The notes under the pieces: generated by a model
Database searches by the model: none
What the model was told of the DNA's origin: nothing
The model's input: only the letters and a program-made list of their open reading frames with translations
IMG/VR virus record: IMGVR_UViG_3300028608_000030
Span: 1-44,736 of that record
Length of the DNA: 44,736 bases
Reading direction: 5' to 3' (one strand)
Source: a virus
Translations under genes and position numbers: made by a program
Shown here: in pieces, positions 4,321-44,714 of the stretch
Layout of the letters: every line of letters begins with the position of its first letter
Numbering within the stretch: position 1 is the first letter of the stretch

Positions 4321-4605
4321 ATGAACGACTATCTATCGGCGTCCGAGCTGGCTGAACTGGTTGAGTGCCAGCCTAATCAAAGGGCGATCATGGCGCGCTG
4401 GCTCAGTCGCCATGGATGGCGCTACGTGCTGGGCAAAAATGGCGTCCCGCGCGTACTGCGGGCATACCGAGATAAGAAACTTGGAGTAGCAGATGGCCAG
4501 CAAAAAGCCGGTCCCACGTCCGCCCCGAACCGCGAAGCCTTCACCCGCGTGGGAGAAGACCGGGATAGCAAGGCTGTACAAGCGCGTCGGCAAGCAGCGC
4601 ATTAG
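4321..4605 (+). CDS. DUF4224 protein, putative excisionase
   Basis: A 94-residue protein starting at ATG 4321 after GGAGG. The first 51 residues (NDYLSASELAELVECQPN, then ARWLSRHGW and NGVPRVLRAYRDKKLG) fit the DUF4224 domain, usually found next to phage tyrosine integrases. The size, basic helix-turn-helix-like fold and position suggest a recombination directionality factor; this is inference. The gene overlaps the integrase gene by 113 bases, so its last 37 residues are encoded in the integrase start region and may be dispensable. Confidence 0.8.
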   Translation: MNDYLSASELAELVECQPNQRAIMARWLSRHGWRYVLGKNGVPRVLRAYRDKKLGVADGQQKAGPTSAPNREAFTRVGEDRDSKAVQARRQAAH

Positions 4606-5638
4606 CTGGATCTATAAGCACATGGACGGGCGAAGCGAAACACTCGCCTCGGCCGTCCTCGGGGACCGCGCCGCGCGCTACGACGCTGAACGACTCGCGG
4701 CCAAGCTAGCGGTCGAGATCCAGCAAGGCGTCGTTGTCGCTGGCGCCGTTTCAGAGATGATTGAGCGGTTTGAACTTAAGGAAGATCCGACGTACTACGA
4801 GGATCAATCAGTAGACGGGAAGAAGACCCGGAAAGCGATGTACGCGAACCTGACAAAGTTCTTTGGACGCATGAGCCCTGCCGATCTGACCACACAGCAC
4901 GGCTACCAGTACCTTGAAGATCGGGCGGCAGCCGGCGCACCTGTGAAGGCAAACAAGGAGATCAGCCAGCTTTCGGTCATCTGCCACTACGGCGTCCGTT
5001 GGGGCCTTCTGCCAGCGAACCCGTTCACCAATATGATGAAGAACCGCTCCACCACTAAAGCAAAGGTTATTTCCCGGCGCCAGGTCCTGCGGTTCTATCT
5101 CTGGTCGGTGAAGCAGCGCGAGAATTACCGCGTCATGGGCTGCGCGGCCATGTTCACGTACTTAACGGGATTTCGCTCATCGGAAACGCGCCCATTTCTC
5201 AAAACCGGCTTGACGGAGGGCGGCGTTACCGTTCTTTCGAGCAAGCGAAAGAAGGGGCAGATGGAAGTGCTGAAGATCCGGGAATGGTCGACGCGGCTTC
5301 GTGTTGTCGTCGCTCGCGCATTGGACCGACAAAACGCCAGTCCGTATCTATTTGCGCCCACGAAGAGATCGGAGGCATACACGCGGCACGGGTGGGCTTC
5401 CAGTTGGAAGGACGCTCAATTGGCCTGGCTTCTGACGTTCGATGAGGGAGTGAAGGAGGAGACACTTACGGCCCACCCCCAGTACTTCACCCTACAGGAT
5501 ATTCGTCCGGCAGCGATTACCCAGAAGATCGCGAATCGGGACCATGACGCCTACGATTTCGCTGCCCATGCTGACCCGTCCACAACCCACAAACACTACG
5601 ATAGGCGACTGGTGAAACGGGCTACGGCAACCGAGTAA
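4493..5638 (+). CDS. int: Tyrosine-type site-specific integrase
   Basis: A 381-residue phage integrase. The N-terminal part (to about 85) is basic and likely binds arm sites; residues about 85-185 form the core-binding SAM-like domain; the catalytic domain follows. Visible catalytic residues are Arg228 (LTGFRSSETR), Arg338 in LQDIR (the usual His of the HxxR box is Gln here), His359 in AAHADPSTT and the nucleophile Tyr369 in HKHYDRR. It catalyses integration at the tRNA-Arg attB and, with a directionality factor, excision. The attP core lies 86 bases downstream. Confidence 0.95.
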   Translation: MASKKPVPRPPRTAKPSPAWEKTGIARLYKRVGKQRISWIYKHMDGRSETLASAVLGDRAARYDAERLAAKLAVEIQQGVVVAGAVSEMIERFELKEDPTYYEDQSVDGKKTRKAMYANLTKFFGRMSPADLTTQHGYQYLEDRAAAGAPVKANKEISQLSVICHYGVRWGLLPANPFTNMMKNRSTTKAKVISRRQVLRFYLWSVKQRENYRVMGCAAMFTYLTGFRSSETRPFLKTGLTEGGVTVLSSKRKKGQMEVLKIREWSTRLRVVVARALDRQNASPYLFAPTKRSEAYTRHGWASSWKDAQLAWLLTFDEGVKEETLTAHPQYFTLQDIRPAAITQKIANRDHDAYDFAAHADPSTTHKHYDRRLVKRATATE

Positions 5639-5724
5639 AATTCTAACGCAGGCATTTTTATTCTAATGATTAACCTGCTAGCGAATTTCGAAACCCAGTA
5701 AGTACTTGTATTTACTACATATTC

Positions 5725-5774
5725 TGGCGCGGCAGGAGGGGCTCGAACCCCCGACCCCGGGCTTAGAAGGCCCG
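5725..5774 (-). other. attP: attP core: 3' half of tRNA-Arg(UCU)
   Basis: Read on the minus strand, this is a tRNA 3' half: anticodon stem-loop CGGGC-CTTCTAA-GCCCG (anticodon TCT), variable loop, T arm GGGGG-TTCGAGC-CCCTC, acceptor strand CTGCCGC, discriminator G and encoded CCA (5725-5727). No D arm or 5' acceptor strand follows on the far side, so it is not a complete tRNA. Phages that integrate into a tRNA gene carry this segment to rebuild the gene. The int gene would lie next to the rebuilt tRNA in the prophage. Confidence 0.9.
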
Positions 5775-5817
5775 GGGGGAATCAAGCTAACAACTTGATT
5801 TTGCTCGGGTCTTTTTT
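5771..5817 (+). terminator. Terminator overlapping the attP core
   Basis: Stem CCCGGG/CTCGGG (5771-5776 with 5804-5809, one G-U pair), a three-base internal loop on each side, then AATCAAG/CTTGATT (5780-5786 with 5794-5800), followed by TC and six T. It would end the integrase transcript. Its left arm shares bases 5771-5774 with the tRNA anticodon stem, so the terminator straddles the edge of the recombination core. Confidence 0.7.
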
Positions 5818-6077: not shown

Positions 6078-7853
6078 ATGTCAAATTACGTAGCTGTGGT
6101 AGTAAAGCGCCCCAAACTCTTGAAAATTCAGAGTTGGCTAAAGGCCTATTGCACCGATCCGAGCGAAATCTCGACTACCAAGTTGACCGAGAACACGTTC
6201 CTTGTAGTCGTATCGAAGGGTGCTACGGAAGACGTTTATGCCGCCGACCGATTCTTCTTTAAGGGCCATGCGGTAGACCATGCGAACAAGGCTGTAATTT
6301 TCGGGGCGCATGGCAAGAAATTGCACAATGCCGCAACAACTAGCGCCTCGCGCCACCAACTCGAAGGTTGCTACATCCACTGCAGTTGGAACGAAGGCGA
6401 AATCGTCTTCAACAACGATGCGTTCGCCATCTGTTCCATGCTCTACTTTTCCGAATCGGATGTGGTTGCCGTGTCGGATTCGATGTTCATCCTAACCAGG
6501 ATACGGCGCCACCTAGGTTTGCCCAACACTCCGAACGAAGAAGCCCTCGTCGCTCGGTCATGGGGCAACACCATGGCGGGCCAGTTGCTTAGCAATGAAA
6601 CCCAAATTGACCAGATAAAGTACGCCACCATCGGTACCACGTTGAGAGTGGCAAACGGAAATCTACTATCGTCCAAAGCCGTTGCCGTTCCTTTCGGTGG
6701 CACACCAAAAATTGATGAGCTAGGAACCTACGAAGAGGAAATTCGAGATTCGGTAAAGCGGGTTAGCTCGTTGATACATACCCTGTCACAGATATCCGCC
6801 AATAGCGTTCGGGTCGCCCTATCCGGTGGATTCGACTCAAGGGTTGTGTTGGCCTCTGCCCTGAAGTCTCCCGCAGCTCGGGAACTCTGCGTTTTTAATT
6901 GCACTGGCATCTCTTCCACTCAGAAGATCGATTACGAAGTTGTCCGAGCGCTGAGCGAGAAATTTGGTTTCCCTCTTGGTCTTCGTGATCAAGAGACAAA
7001 AAAATTCGTAAAGAACTCCGTCGAGAACATTGCAAACCTATGGGTTTTGTCGAACGCCGGCCTATACGATTTCCTGTACACACCCAACTTTTATGCAAAG
7101 AAGGCAGCCGTATTTAACTTTGGCGGTTTCGGCGCTGAAGTCTACAAAGGCATGTATGGGTGGAAGCGTATCAACAAAATTGCCAGCGCCATCAAGAACA
7201 AGGCCACTTCGGAAGCATTCAGGTCGCAGGCGACCAAGGGGATAGGACAACTCGGGATAGACCCATCCGACAACATCGGGTCGGAATGGCATTACCTCGG
7301 CTATCGTAACGCTATCCATTCTGGCAGGGCGACTATGACGTCCATGCTAGGAATGCGACCGCTCATTCAGCGTCAGCTAGTGACGCTCTCTCGTTCTGAT
7401 CTGAATCCTTTCCCCGCGCCAAAGAAAGGCCAAATGAGCATGGTGAGTGACATGCTTATTTATGCGAACCCGGACCTAGCGAAATGCGACTTCGACACAC
7501 CAGATAAGAACTTAAAGGCAGACTATGTCGAAAATCGTTCGAAGCACTTCGGTCAACTATCGACCGCAGATATCGACACCTACACCCTTCTAGGAAAAGT
7601 TGAACGCATCCACCATGGGGCGCCGGAATTGTTCTACAACATGGCGAAAACGTTCAATGACCAGATCCTTTCACAAAGCTTGATTGAAGAAAAAATGGCT
7701 GCGGGATTCGAATGCCTGCCGACCGAGTGCAGAGATCATTACGCTGCCGGCTTTGAAGGGGCTAAGGAGGCTCTTAGCGCGGACGGGAAAATCGGCAGCA
7801 TGCTCCCCTCCTACGCAGGGAAGCTCACCGGAATCGCAGCGCTATTCGCGTAA
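6078..7853 (+). CDS. Asparagine-synthetase-like PP-loop protein (lysogenic cargo)
   Basis: A 591-residue AsnB-superfamily protein. Residues about 70-200 resemble the glutaminase-like half (LEGCYIHCSWNEGEIVF, NNDAFAICSMLYF, VVAVSDSMFIL), but the N-terminus MSNYVAV lacks the catalytic Cys2 of class-II glutamine amidotransferases. The synthetase half has an intact ATP-pyrophosphatase PP-loop, SGGFDS at 249-254, and a GGFGAEVYKGMYGW segment (349-362) like the GGDE-type loop of AsnB. It may adenylate a carboxylate and join it to ammonia or an amine, as in asparagine synthetases, O-antigen uronamide amidotransferases or lasso-peptide cyclases; which one is unknown. Base composition is visibly more AT-rich than its neighbours, a sign of recent transfer. 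It converges on Rz with two bases between the stop codons. Confidence 0.8.
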   Translation: MSNYVAVVVKRPKLLKIQSWLKAYCTDPSEISTTKLTENTFLVVVSKGATEDVYAADRFFFKGHAVDHANKAVIFGAHGKKLHNAATTSASRHQLEGCYIHCSWNEGEIVFNNDAFAICSMLYFSESDVVAVSDSMFILTRIRRHLGLPNTPNEEALVARSWGNTMAGQLLSNETQIDQIKYATIGTTLRVANGNLLSSKAVAVPFGGTPKIDELGTYEEEIRDSVKRVSSLIHTLSQISANSVRVALSGGFDSRVVLASALKSPAARELCVFNCTGISSTQKIDYEVVRALSEKFGFPLGLRDQETKKFVKNSVENIANLWVLSNAGLYDFLYTPNFYAKKAAVFNFGGFGAEVYKGMYGWKRINKIASAIKNKATSEAFRSQATKGIGQLGIDPSDNIGSEWHYLGYRNAIHSGRATMTSMLGMRPLIQRQLVTLSRSDLNPFPAPKKGQMSMVSDMLIYANPDLAKCDFDTPDKNLKADYVENRSKHFGQLSTADIDTYTLLGKVERIHHGAPELFYNMAKTFNDQILSQSLIEEKMAAGFECLPTECRDHYAAGFEGAKEALSADGKIGSMLPSYAGKLTGIAALFA

Positions 7854-37186: not shown

Positions 37187-37265
37187 ATTATTAGGCGACG
37201 CCTAATGAATGTCAATAGGAATTGCCTAACGTGGCGTATAAAGGTGAAAGTTAGGCAATGCTTAA
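37187..37265. promoter_or_regulatory. cI-cro operator region with divergent promoters
   Basis: Three 15-bp operator-like sites: TTAGGCGACGCCTAA (37191-37205, perfect palindrome apart from the central base), ATAGGAATTGCCTAA (37215-37229) and TTAGGCAATGCTTAA (37251-37265, over the cI start codon). The leftward cro promoter has -35 TTGACA (minus, 37210-37215) and -10 AATAAT (37187-37192) at 17 bases, with operator 1 in the spacer. For cI, TATAAA (37237-37242) lacks a good -35, as expected for an activated maintenance promoter. Confidence 0.85.
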
Positions 37266-38355
37266 TGGAACGGAACTAGGCGCTGCGATTAAAGCAGCCA
37301 TTGAACGCAAGATCGCCAGTGGTGCTGCGGCCTCACAGGCGGCGATTGCACGCCACTTCAATGTCAAGCCTCCATCGATCCATGATTGGATCAAAAAGGG
37401 ATCCATCTCCAAGGACAAGCTGCCTGAACTGTGGCGCTACTTCTCGGACGTAGCTGGGCCTGAGCACTGGGGTTTAAGGGCGTGGCCGGACATGGGCACA
37501 CCCTCCGAAGGCTCGATGCCCGTACCAGCGGATCCGTGGCCATTCCCCGATATATCGGAAAAGGACGTGCGCGCTCTTGCGCCTGCTCAACTGAACGCAT
37601 TACAGGGGGCTTTGGCCTTAGCGATTGCGCAGTTAAGGCTGGGTGTCAACATCGCGCCTACAGCCGTCCCATTGCCGAATCCGACTAGCACCCCTCTTCG
37701 CTCGCACAAACCCGGCGGCTTGGTAGACATGGACCATGCTGACGACGCATTCCCAATGCGGATACCCGGCTTGCCGGCCCCTTGGGAAGGCGGACGCACG
37801 ACACATCAAGCAGAGCGCGAGCCGAGGCTTCGGATCAGCACGCAGGAAGGCGTGGTGGCCAATGTGGGACCAGGCGAGCCGCACGCCGCAAACGACAAGT
37901 TCGAGAAGGTTCCGGAACTATCAGATGTTCGCTTGGCGGCGGGCGATGGAATCGAGAACGACGACGAGACTCAAACCGGCGTGATCCAGTTCCGCAGATC
38001 TTTCCTGCGGTCTGTGGGCGCCGACGCCGGTAAGGCCCGCGTGGTCTACGCAAAGGGCGACAGCATGGAGCCGGTAATCAAAGATGGCGCCGCCCTGCTC
38101 GTTGTGCCGAACGAAGATCTGACGCTTCGCGACCTGGCTGGCGGCGGCGTCTACGCCATCAACTATGACGGCAAGATGATCGTGAAGACGGTGGCTAAGG
38201 ACAAGCTAACAGGGCGGTGGGTTGCTCGTTCGTTCAACTCAGCCTACCCCGATATACCCCTGGAGAATGGGCACCCAGCCCGTGTTCTAGGTCAGGTTGT
38301 TTGGGTTGGCGCCCGGCTACGTGATGACGAGGCGGGGCAGTGGATCCGCTCATGA
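37258..38355 (+). CDS. cI: CI-like repressor with S24 (LexA-type) autoprotease
   Basis: A 365-residue repressor. The N-terminal helix-turn-helix is at about 25-50 (SQAAIARHFNVKPPSIHDWI). A long variable linker follows (about 80-220). The C-terminal LexA-like peptidase has the likely cleavage bond Ala228-Gly229 (LAAGDG), catalytic Ser269 in GDSMEP and Lys310 in KMIVKTV. It keeps the prophage silent and should self-cleave when RecA is active, so the phage is probably SOS-inducible. Operator 3 covers its start, which suggests autorepression. Confidence 0.93.
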   Translation: MLNGTELGAAIKAAIERKIASGAAASQAAIARHFNVKPPSIHDWIKKGSISKDKLPELWRYFSDVAGPEHWGLRAWPDMGTPSEGSMPVPADPWPFPDISEKDVRALAPAQLNALQGALALAIAQLRLGVNIAPTAVPLPNPTSTPLRSHKPGGLVDMDHADDAFPMRIPGLPAPWEGGRTTHQAEREPRLRISTQEGVVANVGPGEPHAANDKFEKVPELSDVRLAAGDGIENDDETQTGVIQFRRSFLRSVGADAGKARVVYAKGDSMEPVIKDGAALLVVPNEDLTLRDLAGGGVYAINYDGKMIVKTVAKDKLTGRWVARSFNSAYPDIPLENGHPARVLGQVVWVGARLRDDEAGQWIRS

Positions 38356-38419: not shown

Positions 38420-38740
38420 ATGAGAATGTCATTGCTGTTTGTCGCCGCCATCGTGACTGGCTGCGCCAGCTCCGGGGCGAAGATCGACCAAGCAAAGGTG
38501 CAGGCTATCCAACCGGGCGTCACCACCTACAACGACATGGTCCGTGATTTTGGCTCCCCCTTGAGCCAAGCCTTCAACCAAGACGGTCTGCTCACGGCGC
38601 AATGGTTCTATTTCTACACCGCCGCGTTCGGCATGAACCAAAAGCAACAGCACCTGACAGTGCTGTTCAACAAGGACAAGACCGTCAAGGATGTCGTCAG
38701 TTCTGCCGGCGGCGGTAATGGCGCCAGGCTTGGCCGCTAG
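38420..38740 (+). CDS. Lipoprotein with BamE/SmpA-like domain
   Basis: A 106-residue protein with GAGGGAA seven bases before ATG 38420. A signal sequence MRMSLLFVAAIVTGC ends in a lipobox with Cys15. The mature part (AIQPGVTTYNDMVRDFGSPL, WFYFYTAAFGMNQK, HLTVLFNKDKTVKDVV) follows the SmpA/OmlA fold of BamE and related lipoproteins. Directly downstream of cI and before a terminator, it is probably expressed in lysogens and sits in the outer membrane, where superinfection exclusion or envelope adaptation is plausible. Confidence 0.8.
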   Translation: MRMSLLFVAAIVTGCASSGAKIDQAKVQAIQPGVTTYNDMVRDFGSPLSQAFNQDGLLTAQWFYFYTAAFGMNQKQQHLTVLFNKDKTVKDVVSSAGGGNGARLGR

Positions 38741-38993: not shown

Positions 38994-39036
38994 TTAGGCG
39001 ACGCCTATTGACATGCAATTAGGCGTCGCCTAATAT
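38994..39036 (+). promoter_or_regulatory. Rightward early promoter with two CI/Cro operators
   Basis: -35 TTGACA (39008-39013), 17-base spacer, -10 TAATAT (39031-39036), near the sigma-70 consensus. Operators TTAGGCGACGCCTAT (38994-39008) and TTAGGCGTCGCCTAA (39019-39033) touch the -35 and fill the spacer and -10, so repressor binding would block polymerase. It is the counterpart of lambda PL and drives the recombination, tmRNA and integration genes to the right. Confidence 0.9.
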
Positions 39037-40995: not shown

Positions 40996-41144
40996 TTCTC
41001 CCCCTGGTGCTGCATAGCAGCCGTAGCCGCACGAAACGCGGCGCTATCAAGAGAGGCGGTTGACGCGCCATGTTTCACCAGCCACTAGGTCTGGGTCGGG
41101 CATGGGCGTAGAAGCCGGTGGACGGCGCCGGAAGCCGGTCCAGC

Positions 41145-41230
41145 CGCCTCCCTTGATGGTAGTAGCAGGCAACTGCAGAAGTGAAGTGAATGGCGTTCGG
41201 ACGCGGGTTCAATTCCCGCCGGCTCCACCA
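41145..41230 (+). ncRNA. ssrA: Permuted tmRNA, acceptor (3') piece
   Basis: Bases 41196-41230 match the 3' end of bacterial tmRNA closely: TTCGGAC, T stem GCGGG/CCCGC (41203-41207 with 41215-41219), T loop TTCAATT, acceptor strand CGGCTCC (41220-41226), discriminator A and encoded CCA (41228-41230). TAGTAGCAG at 41160-41168 can pair with 41340-41349 of the coding piece to form helix P2 with one bulged A. The 5' end is not defined; 41145 is an estimate. Because this piece precedes the coding piece, the gene is circularly permuted, as in alphaproteobacteria, cyanobacteria and some betaproteobacteria. Confidence 0.88.
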
Positions 41231-41302
41231 CTGGCGGCATTGGCGTCGAACTCATAACCACCCGGGGTCCGGATCACGGGGAGTTCCAGTGCCGCCAGCC
41301 AT
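41231..41302 (+). ncRNA. tmRNA intervening segment, removed on maturation
   Basis: CTGGCGGCATTGG (41231-41243) pairs with CCAGTGCCGCCAG (41286-41298) over 13 bp with one G-U pair, stacking on the acceptor stem. This is the expected shape of a permuted pre-tmRNA, in which the loop is excised to leave the mature 5' end at 41303 and CCA at 41230. Confidence 0.85.
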
Positions 41303-41580
41303 GGGGCCGATCGGTTTCGACGGGCGTACTGAAGCGGATCTGACTACTAGGCAAGCGGAGCCTTAAACCAAGCAAATTTGTAGACGCCAACGACGACTAC
41401 ATCCGTGCCGCTGCGTAAGCGGTAACGGCCTCCCCCGGCAGGTGGCAACAGAAGCCGGGGACTTCCCCCAGACGTCACTGCGGTAGCGCCTTAGCCGCGC
41501 TGCACAACTCAACTTTCAACACGCGAAAACGGGTACGACAAACCGGTGCTTTATCCGGGGCGCAGTGACGTCTGGAAGAA
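41303..41580 (+). ncRNA. ssrA: Permuted tmRNA, coding (5') piece with tag ANDDYIRAAA
   Basis: It begins GGGGCCGATCGGTTTCGACG, the tmRNA 5' signature. GGGGCCG pairs with CGGCTCC of the acceptor piece over 7 bp, with G3-U70, the alanyl-tRNA synthetase identity pair. The tag frame starts at GCC 41386 after GTAGAC and reads Ala-Asn-Asp-Asp-Tyr-Ile-Arg-Ala-Ala-Ala, stop TAA 41416-41418. The stop lies in hairpin CCGCT/AGCGG (41408-41422), as in other tmRNAs. Further hairpins are CCCCGGC/GCCGGGG and a perfect 15-bp helix (41468-41482 with 41561-41575). The 3' end near 41580 is estimated. The RNA would rescue stalled ribosomes and tag their products. Confidence 0.9.
41468..41575 (+). repeat. Perfect 15-bp inverted repeat closing the tmRNA 3' domain
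   Basis: The arm at 41468-41482 (CCAGACGTCACTGCG) is exactly complementary to 41561-41575. It encloses about 78 bases with smaller helices (GCGG/CCGC at 41481-41499) and an A-rich unpaired stretch. It probably folds the end of the coding piece. Confidence 0.8.
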
Positions 41581-41715
41581 GTGAATCTACGACTTACGCA
41601 GTCTTCCCCCACCCTTCAAGCCCTCCACACCATACCGCCGCGTGCGCACAAAGCGTGGTGTGTGGTTGGCCGTGAGGATCTGGCCGGAAGACTGCACCCC
41701 TACATAGGAACCACC

Positions 41716-42979: not shown

Positions 42980-43149
42980 GCCACGACGACGAATCCGCCG
43001 CGCTGGCCTATCAGCAAGAACTCGAACATCAGGAGCAAGACCATGCAACACAGCGAATCGATGAAGGCAATCGCCCCGGCGCTCTTGGCAGCGCAGAAGG
43101 CTACGGAGTTCGCCAAAAAGGACGCCACGAACCCGCATTTCAAGAATAA
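42976..43149 (+). CDS. Possible short protein overlapping ERF, 57 aa
   Basis: ATG 42976 overlaps the previous stop. The first 22 residues (SHDDESAALAYQQELEHQEQ) are acidic and look coded; the rest overlaps the ERF gene in another frame by 107 bases. It may simply be a leader that couples translation to the ERF gene, whose own AGGAG lies inside it. Confidence 0.4.
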   Translation: MSHDDESAALAYQQELEHQEQDHATQRIDEGNRPGALGSAEGYGVRQKGRHEPAFQE

Positions 43150-43642
43150 GTACGCCGACCTCCCCGCCGTCATTGAGGCCGTCAAACCGGCCCTGAACGC
43201 TGCCGGCATCGTGTACATCCAGACCGCCAGCCCGTCCGACGACAACCGCCTGCATCTGACGACCATGCTGATGCATGAATCCGGGGAATGGATTTCCGAC
43301 ACGCTGGTCATGCCGCTGCCCAAGCAAGACCCCCAAGGCTATGGCAGCGCGATGACCTACGCCCGTCGCTATGCCTTGGCGGCCATCACTGGCGTCTACC
43401 AGGACGACGACGACGGCAACGCAGCGTCCGGCCCGGCTACTCGCCCCACCCAGGCACAGAACGATGCGGCGCCATCTGAGTCGCAGACCGCCGAAGCAGA
43501 CGCAATGATCGTCGCGCAGATGAACGCCGCAGCGACCGTCCCCGACTTGGTGAAGCTGATGAACGGCCTTGCTGCCGACCAAAAGCGCCTTGTCACCCAG
43601 CATTTCAATCAACGCATGAATGAACTCAAGAAGGCAGCGTAA
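43043..43642 (+). CDS. erf: ERF-family single-strand annealing recombinase
   Basis: A 199-residue protein with AGGAG seven bases before ATG 43043. NPHFKNKYADLPAVIEAVKP, LTTMLMHESGEWISD and YGSAMTYARRYALAAITGVY, then QDDDDGN, are the conserved blocks of ERF recombinases (P22 Erf group), which anneal complementary single strands independently of RecA. The C-terminal part is a linker and helical domain. With the adjacent SSB and exonuclease it forms a recombination module. Confidence 0.92.
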   Translation: MQHSESMKAIAPALLAAQKATEFAKKDATNPHFKNKYADLPAVIEAVKPALNAAGIVYIQTASPSDDNRLHLTTMLMHESGEWISDTLVMPLPKQDPQGYGSAMTYARRYALAAITGVYQDDDDGNAASGPATRPTQAQNDAAPSESQTAEADAMIVAQMNAAATVPDLVKLMNGLAADQKRLVTQHFNQRMNELKKAA

Positions 43643-43968
43643 TGAGCAACGACCTGAACCAATGCCAGTTTATTGGCCGACTCGGCAAAGACGTAGAAAT
43701 CCGCTATGCCCCTGACGGCGCTGAAGTAGCCACCTTTTCTCTGGCTTGCGGCTGGAAGACCAGCAGCAAAGAAGGCACTGAATGGGTACGAGTCACCGCC
43801 TTTGGGAAGCTGGCGAGCATTTGCGGCACCTATCTGAAAAAGGGGAAACAGGTGTTCATTCAGGGCCGCATGCAAACCCGCGAGTATGAGAAAGACGGCA
43901 GTAAGCGCTACGTCACCGAGATCATCGCAGACCAAATGCAGATGCTTGGGTCGAAGGAAAGCCAATGA
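43642..43968 (+). CDS. ssb: Single-stranded DNA-binding protein
   Basis: A 108-residue OB-fold protein: NQCQFIGRLGKDVEIRYAPD, WVRVTAFGKLASICGTYLKK, KQVFIQGRMQTREYEKDGS, VTEIIADQMQML. It ends without the acidic, Phe-ending tail of host SSB, so it should not recruit the host SSB-binding proteins. It works with ERF and the exonuclease, overlapping the upstream stop by one base. Confidence 0.95.
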   Translation: MSNDLNQCQFIGRLGKDVEIRYAPDGAEVATFSLACGWKTSSKEGTEWVRVTAFGKLASICGTYLKKGKQVFIQGRMQTREYEKDGSKRYVTEIIADQMQMLGSKESQ

Positions 43969-44714
43969 CCCACGTCTACATCGATATCGAATCACTGCCG
44001 GACATGCGCGAAGGCGCGCTGCAAGCCTTCATCGATGACGCCAAGGAGAACTTCAAGGCACCCTCGACGCTGACGAAGGAGCAGGCAGCGGCCGATCTGG
44101 GGTTGACGGACAAGGATCAGATCAAGTTCACCAGCAAAGACGCCATGATTGCGCAATGGGTGAACAACTTCAAAGAATCGAAGGGGCCGGAACTTGCTGA
44201 GCAGGAATGGCGCAAAACGGCGCTGAACGGTGCATCTGGCCAAGTCCTGATGATCGGCCTCGCATTTGATGACGCCGAACCAGTGGTCGCCCATGCGTCG
44301 ACCGAGGCGGAAACACTGGCCGTCGCGTTCGACATGATCCGCCAAGGTATCGACCCGAATCGCCGCCCGGTGTTCATCGGGCACAACGTGACCGGCTTTG
44401 ACCTTCGCTTCATCTACCAGCGCGCAGTCATCACGGGCGTACAGCCGCCGCTGGCTATCCCCTTCGGCGCGCGCCCTTGGGACGATTCTGTGTTCGACAC
44501 CATGACGCAATGGGCTGGGCACGGCAACCGTATCTCGCTGGACAACCTCTGCACCGCCCTGGGCCTCCCCGGTAAGGGCGAGATCGACGGCAGCCAGGTC
44601 TACGACTACTGGAAAGCCGGACGCGTTGCCGAACTGATCGCGTACTGCGCCGATGACGTTCACAAGGCCCGCGAAGCCCACCGCCGCATGACCTTCCAGC
44701 GCTTGGCCGCGTAA
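43965..44714 (+). CDS. PolB-type 3'-5' exonuclease (DnaQ fold)
   Basis: A 249-residue protein. ExoI motif YIDIES (Asp7, Glu9), ExoII in FIGHNVTGFDLRFIYQRA and ExoIII in YCADDVHKAREAHRRM give the DEDD active site. The family is the predicted exonuclease related to the PolB proofreading domain. It would generate or trim single strands for ERF annealing. It overlaps SSB by four bases and is the last gene before the junction, after which the same transcript continues at base 1. Confidence 0.9.
   Translation: MTHVYIDIESLPDMREGALQAFIDDAKENFKAPSTLTKEQAAADLGLTDKDQIKFTSKDAMIAQWVNNFKESKGPELAEQEWRKTALNGASGQVLMIGLAFDDAEPVVAHASTEAETLAVAFDMIRQGIDPNRRPVFIGHNVTGFDLRFIYQRAVITGVQPPLAIPFGARPWDDSVFDTMTQWAGHGNRISLDNLCTALGLPGKGEIDGSQVYDYWKAGRVAELIAYCADDVHKAREAHRRMTFQRLAA

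Follow-up and report, generated by a model that had tools for sequence, protein, structure and literature searches.

Does a temperate phage carry a working two-piece tmRNA of its own, and what would such an RNA do during infection? The question is raised by a locus in an IMG/VR record of a lambda-like temperate phage (IMGVR_UViG_3300028608_000030), the whole 44,736-nucleotide stretch of which was analyzed and is referred to here as the window.

Structure and subtype of the tmRNA gene

The gene is encoded in reversed order, with the 3' half of the tRNA-like domain preceding the 5' half. The acceptor piece terminates in an encoded CCA at 41230, and 72 nt of spacer separate it from the coding piece, which begins with GGGGCCG at 41303. 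This arrangement had been claimed in a sequence-only reading of the window, which placed the 5' start 73 bases after the CCA end, and the claim proved exact to the base. The 7-bp acceptor stem with G3-U70 described in that reading pairs at 7/7 positions, and the P2 helix that it proposed is present and varies in a compensatory manner among related phages. The tag frame has an alanine resume codon (GCC) and a stop codon, and encodes ANDDYIRAAA. The pseudoknot loop GGCAACAGAA is also found in alphaproteobacterial two-piece tmRNAs. Features of the gene and its surroundings are collected in the table.

Table. Features of the tmRNA locus and of its phage setting (window coordinates)
Feature	Position	Strand	Basis or remark
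Acceptor piece: 3' half of tRNA-like domain, encoded CCA	41155..41230	+	Rfam match and CCA end; 5' end approximate
Intervening sequence, predicted to be removed in the mature RNA	41231..41302	+	Hairpin 41231-41243 with 41286-41298, 11/11 pairs; 4 nt left before coding piece
Coding piece: 5' half of tRNA-like domain, P2 strand, tag frame, pseudoknot	41303..41462	+	3' end approximate
Tag reading frame ANDDYIRAAA*	41386..41418	+	ARAGORN; tag shared with PHB04 and IMG/VR virus
Hairpin across tag end and stop codon	41403..41428	+	4/10 pairs changed on both sides; 100% of cells paired
Terminal pseudoknot, first stem 41433-41439/41454-41460, loop AGGTGGCAACAGAA	41425..41462	+	One two-sided change in first stem; second stem assigned by eye
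Upstream bracketing stem, arms 41046-41059 and 41144-41157	41046..41157	+	Fold; candidate processing signal
Downstream bracketing stem, arms 41461-41482 and 41561-41582	41461..41582	+	22 nt, 91% complementary
CI-like repressor, S24 peptidase domain	37258..38355	+	Profile matches
OR-like operators between cro-like and cI genes	37191..37265	.	37191-37205 perfect; 37251-37265 with 3 mismatches
PL-like promoter: TTGACA at 39008, spacing 17, TAATAT ending 39036	38994..39036	+	Straddled by operator palindromes 38994-39008 and 39019-39033
Early genes beyond the tmRNA: ERF annealing protein, SSB, 3'-5' exonuclease	43043..44714	+	Downstream, same strand as tmRNA
Tyrosine integrase	4493..5638	+	Weak profile match; R, HxxR-like and Y motifs read by eye
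tRNA-Arg(UCU) 3' part, probable attP core	5724..5778	-	Adjoins integrase

Covariance searches identified the gene as permuted. It scored 106.3 bits (E 6.9e-20) at 41168-41418 against Rfam RF04321 (tmRNA_permuted), compared to a cut-off of 47, over the full model length (1-213), and ARAGORN reported a permuted tmRNA with the same tag at 41138-41509. RF04321 is Rfam's merged permuted model, and separate subtype scoring covered the alpha and beta models. The gene fits neither of these, because its scores lie under both curated cut-offs: 65.6 bits against 84 for beta_tmRNA (RF01850), so that the RNA is not simply of the beta type suggested earlier, and 49.3 bits against 50, in a partial match, for alpha_tmRNA (RF01849). 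In the same searches, two-piece genes above the beta cut-off scored 121-251 bits and genomes with an alpha-type permuted tmRNA 254-295. Judged by these scores, the window gene is a permuted tmRNA outside both the alpha and beta subtypes. A plain beta-type gene or a host-derived gene was ruled out by the model scores together with the identity to bacterial genes.

Conservation among unrelated phages

The same tmRNA lineage occurs in four other phages: PHB04 of Bordetella, Axy11 and JWDelta of Achromobacter, and a 109.6-kb virus from IMG/VR (3300020594). By blastn, PHB04 matched at 92% over 286 bases, and the N4-like Axy11 and JWDelta were also matched. These carriers are unrelated phages from different groups (Phabquatrovirus, Schitoviridae and an unclassified 109-kb virus), and the GenBank records of PHB04, Axy11 and JWDelta have no tmRNA annotated at the locus. 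In the coding piece, the four carriers share 86-89% identity with the window, compared to at most 58% for sampled bacterial two-piece tmRNAs, from which the phage tmRNAs separate as a clade with support of 0.995. An intact frame, stop codon and CCA, as well as the GU at the third acceptor pair, are present in all five aligned phages. The tag is ANDDYIRAAA in the window, PHB04 and the IMG/VR virus, ANDDYIRVAA in Axy11 and ANDDYIRLAA in JWDelta, and is thus identical at nine of ten positions, with positions 1-7 and the final two fixed. When some 85,000 prokaryote genomes were searched for the tag motif, none of the 25 matches lay at a tmRNA, and an exact 25-base tmRNA pattern had no match among viral contigs.

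JWDelta (L004 3074-4286) differs from JWAlpha (L142 629-841) in having the tmRNA together with an adjoining HNH endonuclease gene; JWAlpha seems to retain a bracketing-type stem at the locus that lacks the tmRNA. Because JWAlpha, which is close to JWDelta, is without the gene, the phage tmRNA is dispensable. A different permuted tmRNA, also unannotated and with the tag ANDSVYAQAIAA, was observed in Stenotrophomonas phage QDWS359 (L005 1961-2378), where it is overlapped by a hypothetical CDS on the opposite strand.

Covariation was scored on the joined mature pieces of the five phages. In this set 97.6% of cells pair and 13 of 68 pairs have changed on both sides, values that are somewhat favored by a structure predicted from the same alignment. 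None of 500 column shuffles reached the covariation score, and controls in which the partners were slid brought pairing down to 33-53%. The compensatory changes come from the acceptor stem, P2, the T stem, the tag-end hairpin and the pseudoknot stem; pairing in the T and acceptor stems has been kept via two-sided changes. The third-last tag codon (GCC, GTT or CTC) covaries with bases after the stop codon within the tag-end hairpin, and the third-last tag residue varies because its codon pairs there. Since its stems have been kept by compensatory changes, the tmRNA is under selection. A chance structure was ruled out by the shuffles and by the fold of the region (z = -5.5).

The spacers range from 72 to 207 nt, and only those of the window and PHB04 are related in sequence. 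Each of the five nevertheless forms a hairpin directly after the CCA, with 4 nt remaining before the coding piece, and both sides have changed in 10 of its 11 pairs, a covariation likewise reached in 0 of 500 shuffles. Flanking sequences are also mostly unrelated between carriers, but stems bracket the gene: upstream stems that are analogous yet unrelated in sequence occur in PHB04, Axy11, JWDelta and L037, such that all five phages have one, and downstream stems occur in at least three phages, with similar ones in PHB04 and JWDelta. These long bracketing stems are candidate processing signals, likely for RNase III. Elsewhere, on the minus strand of the virus L009 (1440-1780 and 2830-3000), several stretches are enclosed by inverted repeats of the CCATCATG/CATGATGG type, one of them containing a tRNA-like T arm, as if each small RNA of an array were bracketed by processing stems.

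Phage control and host background

Besides the CI-like repressor, the window encodes a divergent Cro/YdaS-like protein, a CII-like activator, a replisome organizer and DnaB; its terminase and portal resemble those of Pseudomonas phage phi297. The operator palindrome TTAGGCGWCGCCTAA has five matches in the window, compared to 0.7 expected, and four of these lie at the OR-like and PL-like sites. The tmRNA is approximately 2.1 kb downstream of a promoter that looks like a CI-controlled PL, and no terminator-like site was found on the plus strand between the two. The earlier placement of a phage-borne permuted tmRNA in a PL-type operon is thus borne out by Rfam and ARAGORN, by the cI/cro/cII order, by operators common to OR and OL and by the promoter itself. 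Because the tmRNA lies downstream of a PL-like promoter with CI-type operators and no intervening terminator-like site, it should be expressed early in the lytic cycle and largely silent in the lysogen. The sequence-only reading had allowed for a role either during infection or in the lysogen; early lytic expression is predicted here as well, and expression in the lysogen is unlikely given CI control of the operon. Right behind cI (38420-38740) is a gene for a small BamE-domain protein, possibly a surface or exclusion gene expressed in lysogeny.

Next to the integrase lies the 3' end of a tRNA-Arg, which probably serves as attP, and the tmRNA is therefore not the attachment site; this ruled out the view of the gene as an attachment-site relic. 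In the same part of the window (6078-7853) is a gene for a 591-amino-acid protein of no clear family, with only a faint likeness to PP-loop ATPases (LarE, GuaA).

The relatives' hosts are Bordetella and Achromobacter. For bacterial comparison, we sampled an order of genomes recognized as betaproteobacterial by their tmRNA tags, and what is said here about the distribution of the permuted form among betaproteobacteria depends on this sample. The permuted model matched in 9 of 200 sampled genomes, one match being a standard gene (L141) and one having an alpha-like tag (L139), and 29 of the 30 best T-arm loci held one-piece genes. Sampled betaproteobacterial tags are mostly ANDE(R/S)(F/Y)ALAA. 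Among genomes with ANDE-type tags, four one-piece tmRNAs (L103, L107, L130 and L131) have an unusual 13-residue tag, ANDSFYGESRLAA. As one-piece ssrA prevails in the sampled betaproteobacterial genomes, the host probably has a one-piece tmRNA of its own. A search for lysogens gave no terminase match at E 1e-100 in 399 genomes of this order. A Pfam scan that took in all but a few window ORFs brought up no SmpB. With no SmpB in that set and one-piece ssrA retained in the sampled genomes, supplementing host trans-translation fits better than replacing it, the two roles between which the sequence-only reading had not chosen.

Proposed function and comparison with known systems

We consider it probable (approximately 0.78) that the locus encodes a functional two-piece tmRNA. 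In the mechanism we propose, the RNA would be transcribed within the PL operon after infection or prophage induction, and RNase P, 3' nucleases and probably RNase III, acting at the bracketing stems, would excise the spacer and flanks, leaving two pieces that remain paired. Host AlaRS would charge the RNA via G3-U70, and host SmpB and EF-Tu would deliver it to ribosomes stalled on broken mRNAs, where nascent chains would receive the tag (A)ANDDYIRAAA and be degraded by ClpXP or a similar protease. Such an RNA could supplement the host one-piece tmRNA at a time of high mRNA turnover and translation load, with CI keeping it mostly off in the lysogen. A tmRNA requirement has been described for growth of lambda-immP22, as cited in PMC12656738.

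Some observations weigh against this reading: the phage proteins scanned included no SmpB, JWAlpha does without the gene, and the residue at -3 of the window tag is alanine, which in ssrA tags, in place of leucine, valine, isoleucine or methionine, may weaken recognition by ClpX. One alternative, which we regard as unlikely, is that ribosomes are rescued and the tag is then handled differently from ANDERFALAA by host proteases or adaptors, sparing or redirecting phage or host proteins. ANDDYIR(A/V/L)AA is unlike the sampled betaproteobacterial tags and yet conserved between unrelated phages, as would be expected of such a device, but the residue at -3 can change along with the RNA helix and the A-A ending has been retained. 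It is quite improbable that the RNA instead acts as a decoy, competing for AlaRS, SmpB or ribosomes and thereby blunting host trans-translation: although tagged proteins may be stabilized by the alanine at -3, and the tag-less tmRNA of mycobacteriophage DS6A, on expression in E. coli, inhibits the cell's own tmRNA (cited in PMC11915505), the window RNA has a complete tag frame and stop codon, unlike DS6A, and two of the five near-identical tags end in LAA or VAA.

Phages often integrate at ssrA, and the 3' end of ssrA is a common attachment site. This, together with 35 T-arm bases that are identical to those of one-piece ssrA genes, could suggest a non-functional passenger, for example a piece of host ssrA acquired by a phage on integration. 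Such an origin is very improbable, given that both pieces are complete and covarying, that the coding piece has no close counterpart among the sampled bacterial two-piece tmRNAs, that the probable attP is a tRNA-Arg and that two carriers are N4-like phages.

The locus represents a two-piece lineage outside the alpha and beta models, in phages that probably infect hosts with a one-piece tmRNA. The compact and conserved RNA, its CI-type control, the strictly conserved tag core and the JWDelta/JWAlpha pair allow a direct test of what a phage gains from its tmRNA. We also offer, as a doubtful extension, that these RNAs constitute a phage-born fourth two-piece lineage, a cassette that moves among unrelated phages with one-piece-tmRNA hosts, is excised via RNase III-type bracketing stems and runs phage-controlled rescue and tagging in place of the host's.

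The description of the locus as an undescribed system, made with reference to one-piece phage forms only, was too strong. A two-piece tmRNA has been reported in methylophage Melnitz by a study that also counted 53 such structures in a phage database, 50 of which came from marine or aquatic samples (PMC9004378); that database may already include PHB04 and Axy11, which are in RefSeq. In PMC11915505, 79 phage tmRNA sequences are listed. In the open-access literature, we found no discussion of the present lineage, of CI-type control over it or of stems that bracket it. What is new is the tmRNA lineage, the CI-controlled setting and the bracketing stems; phage two-piece tmRNAs as such were already published.

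Compared to known families, the window gene shares with RF04321 the reversed order, spacer, G3-U70 stem, P2, tag frame and pseudoknot, and has the same terminal loop as the alpha type (RF01849), while scoring under the cut-offs of both the alpha and beta (RF01850) types. Melnitz also carries a complete two-piece ssrA on a phage, read in PMC9004378 as early-expressed. Its tmRNA, however, groups with alphaproteobacterial tmRNAs and is tied to a glutamine riboswitch in a marine myophage, whereas that of the window belongs to a lambda-like temperate phage with CI-type operators. DS6A, as cited in PMC11915505, has a phage-borne tRNA-like tmRNA domain too, but a tag-less one, whereas the window gene has a full tag frame and the two-piece form.
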